Assembly (NCBI GenBank): GCA_017462755.1
Contig: JAFTQM010000090.1
Coordinates: 1-47,062, forward strand
Length of the DNA stretch: 47,062 bases
Source of the DNA: Lachnospiraceae bacterium
Lineage (GTDB): Bacteria; Bacillota; Clostridia; Lachnospirales; Lachnospiraceae
Direction of reading: 5' to 3'
Position numbers and translations under genes: made by a program. Below, in pieces: positions 16,465-38,619 of this stretch. Positions within the stretch are counted from its first letter, which is position 1; each line of letters begins with the position of its first letter. Below the pieces are notes generated by a model, which saw only the letters and a program-made list of their open reading frames with translations, was not told where the DNA came from and searched no databases.

Positions 16465-17955
16465 TTATTTAAACGCAATCGAGTTCCATCTTAATTCATT
16501 TTTGAAATTGCGGATGGTGGTATCCTTATCAATATATACGCACTCGATTCCCATCATTGCGCCCCAATCGCCCATCTGCTCTGCAGTCAGGTCGAGGGAG
16601 AATGCGGTGTGATGTGCGCCGCCTGCCAAAATCCAAGCCTCTGCACCGGTAATCAGGTTTGGCTCCGGCTTCCAAAGAGCGCTTGCTACCGGAAGCTTTG
16701 GCATCGGGGTATCCTGCTTTAAGGTCTCTACATCGTTGATGATGAGGCGGAAACGGTTGCCAAGGTCTACTAAGGAGCAGGCTACACCGCGTCCCGGCTT
16801 GGTGGTAAATACCAGACGAGCCGGATCCTCACGATTACCCATGCTGAGCGGATTTACCTTAATAGCTGGCTTGCAGTCAGCGATAGAAGGGCAAACCTCA
16901 AGCATATGGGACTGCAGAATTGCTTCCTTGCCCGGCTCTAAATGATAGGTATAATCCTCCATAAAGGAAGTACCGTTTGGCATACCTGCAGCCATAATCT
17001 TCATGACACGAACCATTGCTGCGGTCTTCCAGTCGCCCTCTGCACCAAAGCCGTAGCCATCTGCCATCATTCTCTGCATTGCCAGACCCGGCAGCTGATT
17101 TAAGCCTGCGAGCATCTGGAAGCTGGTAACGATTGCATGGTAGTTGTGCTCGGTTACAAACTTACGGAAACCTACCTCGATAGCTGCCTGCTCACGTACA
17201 TGCTTCTTGAATTCCTCCGGATCACGACCCTCTAAGATAATGTCGTAGGAATCATAATACTCCTGCAGCATAGCATCTACATCGCCCTTTGCAGCACCCT
17301 GTACATACTCAGCTACATCAGTAATGTTGTAAGCATCGATTTCCCAACCGAACTTTACCTCTGCCTCTACCTTATCACCCTCGGTAACGGCTACGTCTCT
17401 CATGTTGTCACCCACACGAAGTACGCGGATATGGCTGCTCTCCATTACACCGATTGCAGTTCTCATCCAGGAACCAATACGATCCTGTACCTCCGGTACG
17501 CTCCAGTGTCCTACCACAACCTTACGCTCGATGCCCATACGGCTTACCATATGACCGAACTCGCGGTCGCCGTGTGCGGACTGGTTCAGGTTCATGAAAT
17601 CCATATCAATCGAGTCATATGGGATGTCACGATTGAACTGAGTGTGCAGGTGCAACAGTGGCTTTCTATACTCCTGTAAGCCTAAAATCCACATCTTTGC
17701 AGGAGAGAAGGTGTGCATCCAGGTAATAACACCTGCACACAGCTCATCTGCATTTGCATCGTTAAAGCACTTACGGATGGATGCCGAATCAATCAATGTA
17801 GGCTTTAATACTACCTCGAATGGCAGTCTGCCGGACTTATTTAACTCCTCTACAATAATTCTGCTGTGCTCTGCTACCTGCTGTAAGGTCTCATCACCAT
17901 ACAAATCCTGAGAACCGGTAGCAAACCAAAACTGATACTTCTTTGTCACTAACAT
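16465..17955 (-). CDS. araA: L-arabinose isomerase
   Basis: Converts L-arabinose to L-ribulose in the cytoplasm, the first intracellular step of arabinose use. At 496 residues it matches the family. The metal and catalytic residues fall almost exactly at E. coli numbering: Glu306 (GFGAEGDW), Glu333 (FMEDY), His350 (LQSHML) and His449 (GGAHHT). The ATG at 17953-17955 is preceded by AAAGGAAT; a TTG 18 bases earlier is weaker. It is the last gene of the transport and GH43 run, but a large foldback and a possible promoter lie just upstream, so it may be controlled separately. Ribulokinase and ribulose-5-phosphate epimerase genes are not in the window. Confidence 0.97.
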   Translation of the reverse strand: MLVTKKYQFWFATGSQDLYGDETLQQVAEHSRIIVEELNKSGRLPFEVVLKPTLIDSASIRKCFNDANADELCAGVITWMHTFSPAKMWILGLQEYRKPLLHLHTQFNRDIPYDSIDMDFMNLNQSAHGDREFGHMVSRMGIERKVVVGHWSVPEVQDRIGSWMRTAIGVMESSHIRVLRVGDNMRDVAVTEGDKVEAEVKFGWEIDAYNITDVAEYVQGAAKGDVDAMLQEYYDSYDIILEGRDPEEFKKHVREQAAIEVGFRKFVTEHNYHAIVTSFQMLAGLNQLPGLAMQRMMADGYGFGAEGDWKTAAMVRVMKIMAAGMPNGTSFMEDYTYHLEPGKEAILQSHMLEVCPSIADCKPAIKVNPLSMGNREDPARLVFTTKPGRGVACSLVDLGNRFRLIINDVETLKQDTPMPKLPVASALWKPEPNLITGAEAWILAGGAHHTAFSLDLTAEQMGDWGAMMGIECVYIDKDTTIRNFKNELRWNSIAFK

Positions 17956-17999
17956 AATCTTATTCCTTTCCAACTTATTTCTACTAACTATATTCGTTA

Positions 18000-18005
18000 A
18001 TTATA
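18000..18005 (-). promoter_or_regulatory. Possible -10 box for araA
   Basis: A perfect TATAAT on the minus strand, 45 bases before the araA start. No good -35 is found at the usual distance; that position falls in the right flank of the foldback element. It could be an activator-dependent promoter or chance. Confidence 0.35.
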
Positions 18006-18015
18006 AAACTTCTAT

Positions 18016-18178
18016 AGGCTATATTACTTCCTGCAAGTTAACATTACCATAAGCAGGTACTCGAAGACCGCCGGTACTTAGGCACTGTATTCTAGTGCCT
18101 TATGTACCGCTGCGAGTCTGAGGTAGCGCAAGCGTGCCTGCGATGGTAATTGTTTAAGCTTGCAGGAAGTTTAAGCCT
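18016..18178 (-). other. Large foldback element (structured RNA or MITE-like) upstream of araA
   Basis: Nested complementary segments span about 160 bases: AGGCT/AGCCT (18016-18020, 18174-18178), a perfect 12-bp pair ACTTCCTGCAAG/CTTGCAGGAAGT (18026-18037, 18159-18170), ATTACCAT/ATGGTAAT (18043-18050, 18143-18150), GCAGGTAC/GTGCCTGC (18053-18060, 18134-18141, one wobble), then an inner hairpin CGGTAC/GTACCG (18072-18077, 18104-18109) capped by GGCACT/AGTGCC (18081-18086, 18094-18099). There is no terminator T-run. It lies between the GH43 gene and araA. Confidence 0.7.
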
Positions 18179-18199
18179 CTATCTTCGTTTTTTCATTAA

Positions 18200-19480
18200 C
18201 TACTCTTTTATTTTCTTTCCCCAAACACCGATACCAGCATCATTTCTTCCGGTCAGCGCAATCGTTTCGCCGCCCTCCTCGCGGTCGGTCGAACGGATTG
18301 CCCGGTAATGCTCAATTGCACCGTTTATTACGACTTCCAAATCGTTTCTTGCCTCATCATAATTCCAGCGACCGTGCAAATCGCCTATTTTACAACCTCC
18401 GTCGGCATCCAGACGCATCAGCGTCGGCTGTTCACACAACCGCTTTACATCCAACACAAAGTCGATGCGCTGATACTTTCCGGTCAGGTTTGCCATCGTC
18501 AGTCCACCCTCCGTTTCTCCGTCGTACAGACAAGGGGACACCAGCGGCCATCCCGCATCATCCCAAAGCATCTTACGGATATTCAGCGTATGCACGCGTG
18601 GGTCCTTCTCATAGCGTGCATGGCATACCATATACCAATCCTTACCGCGGCGCAGCACCGAATTGTGTCCGAGTCCCAGAAAACCGGTTCCCTCTTTGAA
18701 GGAATAGCCCGTCGTAATCTTCAGACCCACATGATTTGCCGGCTTTTCCATATCCGTCATCAGAACTCCGTTGTGATCCAGATACGGTCCGGTCAGCTTC
18801 TTGCTTCTGCCGACCCTCACATTGTACACATTCGAAAGGGAGTCATACGATACAAACAAATAATAATAGCCTGTCTTAGGATTGTATTTGATATACGGTC
18901 CCTCTATCGCCGTATCACAGCTTCTTCTCGGTCTGCAAGCCAGCGAAATACCGTAGCCCTCCTCATCTGCCAGACCGGTCGCACGGTCAAGCTTCAACAG
19001 GCGGATGCCACCCCAGAAGGAGCCATATACCATGTAGTGCTCTCCGGTTTCTTCATCACGCACCGGATTGGCATCAATCGCATTGACCGGACTCGCAAAG
19101 GTCGTCTGCACCACAATGCCGCGATGCACAAACGGTCCCTCCGGCGAGTCACTTACTGCCAGACCAATGACCGAATTCTGCGAACCAAAGCTGGATGCGG
19201 AATAATATAACCGATATTCATTTCCTTCCTTGATGATATCCGGAGCCCAGATATTTCTGGCATGCGTCAGCTCCAGCACCTCTTCCGGTATCTTTCCGTC
19301 CTTAAGCGCTGCCCCCAAAAACTCAAAGTGAATCAAATCCTTGGAGCGTCTGATATGTCCGCCGATGCAATCTCTTCCTTTCGGACCGGCATCGGTCGAA
19401 TAGGTGTAATAATAACCGCTCGCATCATCATAAAATATCGCCGGGTCATGAGAAAATAAGCCACCCTCAATCTGTTCCAT
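18200..19480 (-). CDS. GH43 family arabinanase / arabinosidase (intracellular)
   Basis: A five-bladed beta-propeller glycosidase of 426 residues with no signal peptide, so it acts inside the cell on imported oligosaccharides. The inverting catalytic set is visible: base Asp12 (SHDPAIFY), modulator Asp136 (NAIDANPV) and acid Glu193 (AIEGPYI). Further segments (HARNIWAPDI, YGSFWGGI, GHNSVL, HARYEKDPRVHTL) resemble arabinan endo-1,5-alpha-arabinosidases; the last 80 residues form an extra C-terminal beta-domain. The ATG at 19478-19480 follows GGAGGAGAAGG. Exact specificity (endo or exo, arabinan or arabinoxylan) is uncertain. It lies between the importer genes and araA. Confidence 0.88.
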   Translation of the reverse strand: MEQIEGGLFSHDPAIFYDDASGYYYTYSTDAGPKGRDCIGGHIRRSKDLIHFEFLGAALKDGKIPEEVLELTHARNIWAPDIIKEGNEYRLYYSASSFGSQNSVIGLAVSDSPEGPFVHRGIVVQTTFASPVNAIDANPVRDEETGEHYMVYGSFWGGIRLLKLDRATGLADEEGYGISLACRPRRSCDTAIEGPYIKYNPKTGYYYLFVSYDSLSNVYNVRVGRSKKLTGPYLDHNGVLMTDMEKPANHVGLKITTGYSFKEGTGFLGLGHNSVLRRGKDWYMVCHARYEKDPRVHTLNIRKMLWDDAGWPLVSPCLYDGETEGGLTMANLTGKYQRIDFVLDVKRLCEQPTLMRLDADGGCKIGDLHGRWNYDEARNDLEVVINGAIEHYRAIRSTDREEGGETIALTGRNDAGIGVWGKKIKE

Positions 19481-19509
19481 CCTTCTCCTCCATGTACACT
19501 TTAATTTGG

Positions 19510-19580
19510 CTTGGAAAAAAGTTACCTTTCCAAGATTGTAAAAGGGGGCGGAAAAAGCATCTCCGCCTTCTCCGTCCCCC
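19510..19580 (-). terminator. Two hairpins between the binding-protein gene and the GH43 gene; likely partial terminator
   Basis: On the minus strand a GC-rich hairpin (GGGGG at 19544-19548 with CCCCC at 19576-19580, plus internal pairs) is followed by TTTT, and a second perfect 8-bp stem (19510-19517 with 19527-19534) lies just after it. In an operon this would lower expression of the enzymes relative to the abundant binding protein, or protect the upstream mRNA 3' end. Confidence 0.65.
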
Positions 19581-19603
19581 ATTGTCATTTAAACTGTTAC
19601 TGC

Positions 19604-37007: not shown

Positions 37008-37137
37008 TCTTTCGTATTATCTCATTTTATGACAAAGAAAAAATTAGGCATTTGCGAAACTCATAAGAGTCTTCACTAAAGCCCGACAAATGAACAAAAC
37101 ACCTAAAAAAGATTTTAAAGAAGGGAAGGTATTACTT

Positions 37138-38619
37138 ATGGCAAAGCTTTACATCAATCCGGGCAATCCGAAGAGCAAAATCAACAAAGAAATTTACGGT
37201 AATTTCTCCGAGCATCTGGGCAGATGTATTTATGAAGGAATTTTTGTTGGCGAGGATTCCCCGATTCCAAACACCAACGGTATGCGTAACGATGTCGTAG
37301 AAGCATTAAAGGAAATGAAGCTTCCGGTACTTCGCTGGCCGGGCGGCTGCTTCGCAGATGAATATCACTGGATGGACGGTATCGGTCCGAAGGAAAACAG
37401 AAAAAGAATGATTAACACCCATTGGGGTGGTGTAGTAGAGGACAACAGCTTCGGTACGCACGAATTTATGGAGCTCTGCCGTCAGCTCGGCTGTGAGACC
37501 TATATCAACGGCAACCTTGGCAGCGGCACCGTGCGCGAAATGTCCGAGTGGGTAGAATACATGACCTTCTCTGGTGTTTCTCCGATGGCTGACCTCAGAA
37601 AAGAAAATGGTCACGAGGATGCATACACCGTAGATTATTTCGGTGTAGGAAACGAATCCTGGGGCTGCGGCGGTAATATGACTCCGGAACACTACGCAAA
37701 CGAGTATCGCCGTTATCAGACCTATGTCAGAAATTACACCAACGACCACAAGATTTACAAGATTGCTTGCGGTCCGAACGCTTCCGATTACGATTGGACC
37801 GACAAGGTTATGAAGATTGCAGGCAACTATATGGATGGTCTTTCCCTTCACTATTACACCCTGCCAACCGGCAACTGGGGACACAAGGGAAGTGCAACCG
37901 ACTTTGATAGTGCCGAGTATTATAAAACCATAAAGAATACCTTCTTCATGGAAGAGCTTTTGACCCGCCACAGCGCAATCATGGATCAGTACGACCCGGC
38001 TAAGAGAGTCGGCTTAATCGTTGACGAATGGGGTACCTGGTATGATGTAGAGCCTGGCACCAATCCGGGCTTCCTGTATCAGCAGAACACCATGCGTGAC
38101 GCTATGGTAGCAGCCATCAACTTAAATCTGTTCAATAAGCACAGTGACCGTGTTCAGATGGCAAACATCGCACAGTTAGTAAATGTACTGCAGGCAGTTA
38201 TCCTGACCGAGGGCGAGAAGATGATTCTGACCCCTACCTATCATGTATTCAAGATGTACGCAGACCATCAGGATGCTACTCTGCTTGACAGTTCTCTCGC
38301 TACTGAGAAAATCGGTACCGAAGAAAACCAGATTCCAAACCTGACCGAGTCTGTTTCCGTAGCAGCTGACGGTACCATTACCATCACCATGGCAAATCTT
38401 TCTCTGGATGCTTCTTATCCAATCGAGGCTGTATTTGCAGAGGGCGCAGCTACCGCAGCTACCGGCACCATCCTGACCGGTGCCATGAAGGATCACAACA
38501 CCTTCGATGCTCCGGAGGTAGTAAAGACTGCTGACTTCACTGATATTACCGTCGCAGACGGCAAGGTAAGCTTTACCGTGCCACCATGCAGCGTAGTAAA
38601 GATTAACGTTACTATGTAA
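37138..38619 (+). CDS. abfA: GH51 alpha-L-arabinofuranosidase (intracellular)
   Basis: Removes terminal alpha-arabinofuranosyl residues from arabinan and arabinoxylan oligosaccharides. The 493 residues match cytoplasmic GH51 enzymes and there is no signal peptide. The retaining catalytic pair is clear: acid/base Glu173 ([11 protein letters not shown]) and nucleophile Glu297 (LIVDEWGTW). Other hallmarks are the opening [34 protein letters not shown] and LSLHYYT. The ATG at 37138 has GAAGGGAAGG upstream and the protein aligns from here; an earlier ATG at 37090 would add 16 residues without a good ribosome site. It is monocistronic, with a terminator just after. Confidence 0.95.

Follow-up and report, generated by a model that had tools for sequence, protein, structure and literature searches.

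Structure of the Foldback Between araA and a GH43 Gene

The DNA upstream of araA in this Lachnospiraceae genome folds back on itself over most of the intergenic space, raising the question of whether it is a structured RNA serving araA, a processing site between two messages, or a mobile element. Within the window, here meaning the whole stretch of 47,062 nucleotides analysed, araA lies on the negative strand (16465-17973), and the gene on the far side, taken for a transporter in the original prediction, is instead a GH43 glycoside hydrolase (18200-19588, negative strand, PF04616), with the foldback separating the two co-directional genes. The foldback itself is real: for 18005-18190 the positive strand has a folding energy of -84.4 kcal/mol, its shuffled versions averaging -48.1 kcal/mol (z -9.72), with none of 200 shuffles folding as well, and the negative strand of the region reaches a z of -7.02. 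The better-folding strand, which carries the GNRA hairpin described below, is therefore antisense to araA. Pairing extends past the 18016-18178 first proposed to approximately 205 bp (17996-18200, positive strand), with GTTAAT at 17996-18001 pairing with ATTAAC at 18195-18200 in the fold of 17985-18207, and these limits correspond to the size of the T1-ended copies described below. The right end at 18200 abuts the stop codon of the GH43 gene.

Rather than the single nested hairpin envisaged originally, the fold is a three-way junction at which the long arms meet a main stem-loop and a GNRA mini-hairpin of 2 bp. By sequence and fold, the left arm (17996-18052) includes a degenerate terminal repeat, GTTAATTATAAAAC, which judged by eye is probably a degraded T1 end, and the right arm (18139-18200) ends in GTTTTTTCATTAAC. 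Both perfect stems reported earlier are present, the 12-bp arm stem (18026-18037 with 18159-18170) in the sequence and the fold, and the 8-bp stem (18043-18050 with 18143-18150) in the sequence and the inverted-repeat list. The conserved three-way-junction core (18046-18146) matches the R1 covariance model, built from 72 aligned copies, at 106.7 bits, a score to be read in light of the window copy being itself one row of that model and not an independent copy. Alignments of the copies place within the core, all on the positive strand, a hypervariable stem and lower main stem (5′ side 18065-18071, partner 18112-18119), a 2-nt CT bulge (18110-18111), a near-invariant CGGTAC stem (18072-18077, partner GTACCG at 18104-18109), and an apical stem-loop (18081-18099) whose strongly covarying stem GGCACT/AGTGCC closes the loop GTATTCT. 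The mini-hairpin, GC[GCAA]GC at 18126-18133, was delimited by its hairpin pattern across copies.

As predicted, a search of 17900-18350 found no site resembling an intrinsic terminator, and the foldback belongs to no known riboswitch class, there being no match to Rfam 15 at gathering score in the window; Rfam searches of five and of nine other loci gave only matches that fall far short of the gathering score, in several cases to miRNA-precursor models. No convincing target-site duplication was seen by eye at the window copy. A half element assigned by eye to the same family, consisting of the left arm only (AGGCATTTGCGAAACTC...AACAAAACA), lies at 37046-37102 on the positive strand, approximately 35 bp upstream of a frame with an ATG at 37138, and a second left-arm remnant, also upstream of an ATG, is found elsewhere in the genome (G000:C53:12254).

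Copies and Host Range

The window's own genome (G000) carries the element in 32 places by DNA search and has 33 R1 matches, including one partial and one weak, a number of further copies that fits a MITE. Among five relatives of the same genus (G001 to G005), R1 has no matches in the first four and finds five divergent copies in G005. Across the family, 163 of 397 sampled Lachnospiraceae genomes have R1 matches (E <= 0.001) in a scan with strict filters that scored at most 10 candidates per genome; many of the carriers had at least 10 candidates and are multi-copy, and one single-contig genome (G419) has 16 copies. A sample of the phylum gave R1 matches in five of 398 genomes: the window's own, three other Lachnospiraceae and, from another family, a genome with six weak, divergent copies. 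A second model, built from divergent and typical copies, matched nine of the 398, namely the same five, with at least nine copies each among the matches listed, and four with a single weak, near-threshold match. The divergent multi-copy form outside the family (L154, L159 and L241 to L244, genome G781) may reflect horizontal spread or an older origin.

An exact pattern of the apical part was found in 68 stretches of genome contigs, titled mostly as Lachnospiraceae or its genera, the remaining titles being 'bacterium', Clostridiales, one Clostridiaceae and four Muribaculum sp. The last (L065, L070, L076 and L078) bear a Bacteroidota name by record title alone, and may be either mislabelled bins or true hosts. 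Records of the cultivated isolates GAM79 and G11 are among those matched. The search for a plasmid origin gave no plasmid match, and the exact pattern had no matches in viral contigs. One query matched a single phage record and another matched four, all unannotated 'Bacteriophage sp.' from human faeces; these were not counted as evidence because the record inspected is marked UNVERIFIED, and a phage or plasmid origin was rejected.

Element Ends and Target-Site Duplications

Four types of end, T1 to T4, were distinguished, and one of them is present at both ends in 56 of 158 copies; the other 102 show none of the four at both ends. T1-ended copies span 192-242 bp, 46 of 49 falling at 204-210 bp, while T2-ended copies measure 273-274 bp and the T4 copies of the window's genome 268-272 bp. 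Young copies elsewhere show terminal inverted repeats accompanied by target-site duplications. In a blind comparison of flanks, a direct-repeat score of 11 or more was reached by 10 of 91 copies versus two of 182 controls, six of the ten high scorers having their repeats at equal distances from the core and the other four not. T1 ends (AGRYAATTGCGAAAC) are accompanied by 10-14-bp duplications, with a score of at least 9 in 11 of 47 copies and in none of the shuffled flank pairs over 20 rounds. T2 ends (GGTTCGGGTGTCAAAAGCCC) have 8-9-bp direct repeats in all five copies fetched from genome G195, and none was found at the T2-ended L071. T4 ends (CTTGAGTTTCC) have 8-9-bp repeats in all four copies fetched from G005 and, in the window's genome, a 7-bp repeat in one of five; an 8-bp duplication was found in one of three T3-ended copies.

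Several derived forms were observed. Mini-palindromes that lack the core and consist almost wholly of a pair of T1 ends set back to back occur at L107 (G000:C75:29379-29418), L182, L183 and L184, and paired cores a few hundred bases apart occur in several genomes (L176, L177, L106, L199 and L065), inverted in all cases except L065, where they are direct. In G195, one-ended truncated copies (L190 and L192 to L196) retain one terminal repeat and stop inside an arm or the core. Retrotransposition was considered as their origin; however, the flanks of L190, L192, L194 and L195 show no direct repeat by eye, making later deletion the likelier explanation.

No autonomous partner, that is, a transposase with matching ends, was found in G000, G195 or G123, which are draft assemblies searched exclusive of genes adjoining single end sites. 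The end-like sites in these three genomes are mini-palindromes, truncated copies, core-bearing copies, single sites and chance matches in genes. An ISL3 transposase was not supported as the mobiliser, as the only ISL3-type locus of G000 is without any of the four end motifs, and none of this type was found in G195 or G123.

Insertion Sites and Gene Context

Two relatives of the same genus, G004 and G001, have a confirmed GH43 gene followed by araA in the same order, with a spacer lacking the element, and neither has an R1 match anywhere in its genome; among the other three relatives, the upstream sequence of G003 is too short for comparison, the araA of G002 is only 51% identical, and G005 has no araA match. 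Copies elsewhere are overwhelmingly intergenic, 101 of 104 lying outside called open frames and three within one. Flanking genes were classified for the 85 of these 104 copies that have a called gene on either side and no gene running across them, giving 30 ++, 25 --, 20 divergent and 10 convergent sites. The commonest Pfam family among neighbouring genes accounts for three of 58 and four of 100, and no gene-family preference was found beside copies in the 25 commonest of 86 and of 173 Pfam families. The copies are short, non-coding, numerous and dispersed.

The MITE-like assignment rests on these dispersed copies, the inverted-repeat ends, the duplications at young copies and the empty orthologous sites in two relatives, and bears out the suggestion in the original prediction of a mobile element with long inverted repeats. 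We consider it likely, with good confidence, that the foldback is one old copy of a non-autonomous, MITE-like family of Lachnospiraceae, in which inverted-repeat arms close a conserved three-way-junction core, the ends presumably being moved in trans and exchangeable and the core presumably being kept for its fold. A transposase of insertion sequences, acting in trans, would recognize the ends and move the element. The insertion beside araA is most likely incidental to the two genes it separates; read-through from the GH43 gene would place a long hairpin in the araA leader.

Conservation and Covariation of the Core

Two alignments support the core fold. In the first (A2), 89.9% of cells pair and double changes occur at 21 of 28 pairs, with a covariation score of 0.376 versus 0.151 when shuffled; in the second (A7), which is model-fitted and was extended by 30 matches from other genomes (26 absent from A2), the corresponding values are 96.4%, 26 of 28, and 0.493 versus 0.175. 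None of 500 shuffles reached the observed score in either alignment. All 92 mini-hairpins fitting a loose search pattern have a GNRA loop, a count in which the pattern fixes the first G and from which 12 of 104 copies are set aside as not fitting, some because the hairpin is mutated, truncated or replaced. Divergent subfamilies retain the branched layout, the CUUAG-type internal loop (CUUAG/CUUAU) and mostly the 2-nt bulge. The invariance of some core bases is partly due to selection of the copies, since the apical search pattern fixes those bases, and in L148, which was found by the model, the near-invariant stem is altered on both sides.

Some copies depart from the common layout. L042 and L086 have a much longer hairpin-like insert in place of the GNRA mini-hairpin, and L180 and L181 of G123 have an extra block in the internal loop of the core (139 bp in L181) that reads as several hairpins; this expanded form seems to have moved as well, since the two copies lie in different flanks.

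The arms vary widely in sequence while the core fold is conserved. Each left arm is on average closer to its own right arm (68% identical) than to the right arms of other copies (55%), and for 15 of 28 copies the best partner is the right arm of the same copy. The only orthologous pair with both flanks alike, L055 and L080 (92% and 89% identical), still folds well in both members, at -75.8 and -80.2 kcal/mol. This co-evolution of the arms could also come from palindrome correction during replication.

Proposed Exchange of Ends Around Related Cores

Related cores are enclosed by all four end types, T1 to T4, even though their end sequences are distinct and T1 is accompanied by duplications of another length than the rest; conversely, T4 ends carry two core subfamilies, one in the window's genome and one in G005. 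With related cores in four end types and two subfamilies in one end type, the core looks like an exchangeable module. Three copies in the window's genome have T1-like ends inside T4 ends, suggesting nesting as a route of exchange. The ends would be exchangeable, insertion of one element into another being a possible way, and related cores would thereby have come to lie in at least four end types; we infer that the ends were exchanged rather than diverged beyond recognition. Extending the MITE-like reading, the core may, although we put this forward tentatively and with the balance somewhat against it, be a selfish structural module, an RNA or folded single-stranded DNA binding a host factor, that has been recruited by several unrelated MITE lineages across the family and spreads by end swapping and not through one transposase. 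Such a module would parallel, in bacteria, the RNA-derived heads of SINEs.

RNA or Single-Stranded DNA

The core would be kept because the element or its host needs it in folded, single-stranded form, most likely as RNA, with DNA the less likely form, putatively through the binding of a factor. One strand of the core gives the better fold in 95 of 102 copies, and in 68 of 98 when 75-nt arms are included. At two junction pairs, wobbles on one strand fill 34 and 19 of 68 cells, versus 0 and 1 for A-C. G-U makes up 3.9% of standard core pairs, 1.1% without the two junction pairs and 6.9% with the RNAalifold structure, compared with 12.4% in a control TPP riboswitch from the same family (28 sequences, 11 pairs); such scarcity is less in keeping with an ordinary RNA. 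In the arms, G-U is not in excess on the strand of the core, with 233 versus 258 in other genomes (p 0.28) and a slight reversal in the window's genome (73 versus 107, p 0.014). The GNRA loop, the unpaired conserved bases, the strand asymmetry and the one-strand junction wobbles favour RNA, whereas the scarce G-U, the symmetric arms and the near-even gene orientation favour DNA. Wobble pairs were tried as a discriminator and set aside, as the G-U excess in the core (71 versus 24 A-C) rests on two pairs and an 'intermediate wobble' measure, at 1 of 79 for TPP and 47 of 856 for the element (13 of 792 without the two pairs), does not separate them.

An alternative is that the pairing is selected in DNA, the fold being a single-stranded substrate for recombination or transposition that is recognized by its shape. 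Precedents exist in integron attC sites and in palindromes derived from IS200/IS605 elements, in which structure is conserved and stem sequence is variable. The rarity of wobble pairs outside two positions and the lack of a wobble excess in the arms agree with a DNA substrate, and GNRA-like loops can be stable in DNA too. However, neither IS200/IS605 elements nor attC sites are known to make a target-site duplication, whereas 8-14-bp duplications were found here, which sets the foldback apart from both. The junction wobbles on one strand and the even representation of co-directional genes (30 versus 25, a rough proxy of replication direction) also argue against this explanation, which we regard as unlikely.

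Template Switching, mRNA Processing and araA Regulation

Covariation could arise without function if intrastrand template switching maintains the pairing of quasi-palindromes while the core hitch-hikes. The copy-specific arms and the few wobble pairs would agree with such a process, but the conserved unpaired GNRA loop, CT bulge and CUUAG/CUUAU loop across subfamilies are unaccounted for by it, as are the one-strand junction wobbles, and templated correction should erase bulges and mismatches; we consider this explanation improbable.

We give similarly little credence to an mRNA element domesticated by the host, in which double-stranded RNA would serve processing or stability and uncouple the neighbouring genes, akin to Correia/NEMIS or ERIC. 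The long near-perfect stems, the intergenic position and the separation of two co-directional genes in the window all suit such a role, and RNase III cuts mRNAs bearing Correia elements according to PMC10969869. Against it, 20 of the 85 classified sites are divergent, where downstream read-through is not expected, and the site is not conserved in the two relatives examined. Cleavage between the two messages, also among the original suggestions, may occur as a by-product of a long hairpin being transcribed.

The great stability of the fold, its covariation, its conserved loops and its place immediately before araA would speak for a cis-acting riboswitch or attenuator in the araA leader. This reading can hardly be upheld, given that the syntenic GH43-araA spacers of G004 and G001 are without the element, that copies adjoin unrelated genes in mixed orientation with no consistent gene class or conservation upstream of orthologues, that the GNRA strand is antisense to araA, and that no terminator-like site is present.

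Comparison with Known Repeats

Conserved RNA folds are found in other dispersed mobile repeats, namely the bcr1-type repeats of Bacillus cereus and the pneumococcal BOX. The foldback resembles them in these respects by general description alone, and we know of no sequence relation to either. As a MITE-like family, it shares with Correia/NEMIS, ERIC and QMITE the form of a short, non-coding intergenic repeat with terminal inverted repeats, target duplications and tens of copies, and prokaryotic MITEs have been described as giving stable hairpin transcripts, with cleavage of Correia mRNAs by RNase III (both from PMC10969869). The family shows the MITE features tested here, with the partner search in G000, G195 and G123 negative as given above; unlike those MITEs, it has a conserved, covarying three-way-junction core with a GNRA hairpin, common to elements that differ in their ends (four types) and in the length of their duplications.

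Among published categories, the closest is that of the 'mobile/repeat sequence candidates' (MRSCs) of PMC11109978. One of these, MRSC-65-2, is similarly a covarying structured motif with dozens of copies and inconsistent gene orientation, its RNA or DNA form being undecided. However, MRSC-65-2, which comes from diverse phyla, forms one long stem bearing a UYCCGG repeat, whereas the foldback is branched, has turned up almost solely in Lachnospiraceae, and shows no TYCCGG by eye on the positive strand of the element; the distinction is drawn from the description of MRSC-65-2, one of 250 MRSCs (PMC11109978). A literature search, including parts of PMC2267715 and PMC8040213 and with supplements outside its scope, found no description of the element, and the matches listed for a search with the sequence letters of the core looked unrelated by title.

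Implications

As an insertion near araA the element is ordinary; it is unusual in having a core common to elements with different ends. A strongly covarying fold that is outside Rfam and present in 163 of 397 sampled Lachnospiraceae genomes, many of them multi-copy, makes up a widespread component of gut genomes that bears no label, and its copies are easily misread as riboswitches of the genes they adjoin. Should unrelated MITEs indeed exchange the core, a functional nucleic-acid module can be common to several non-autonomous elements, and the retention of an elaborate fold in mobile repeats would become directly testable.
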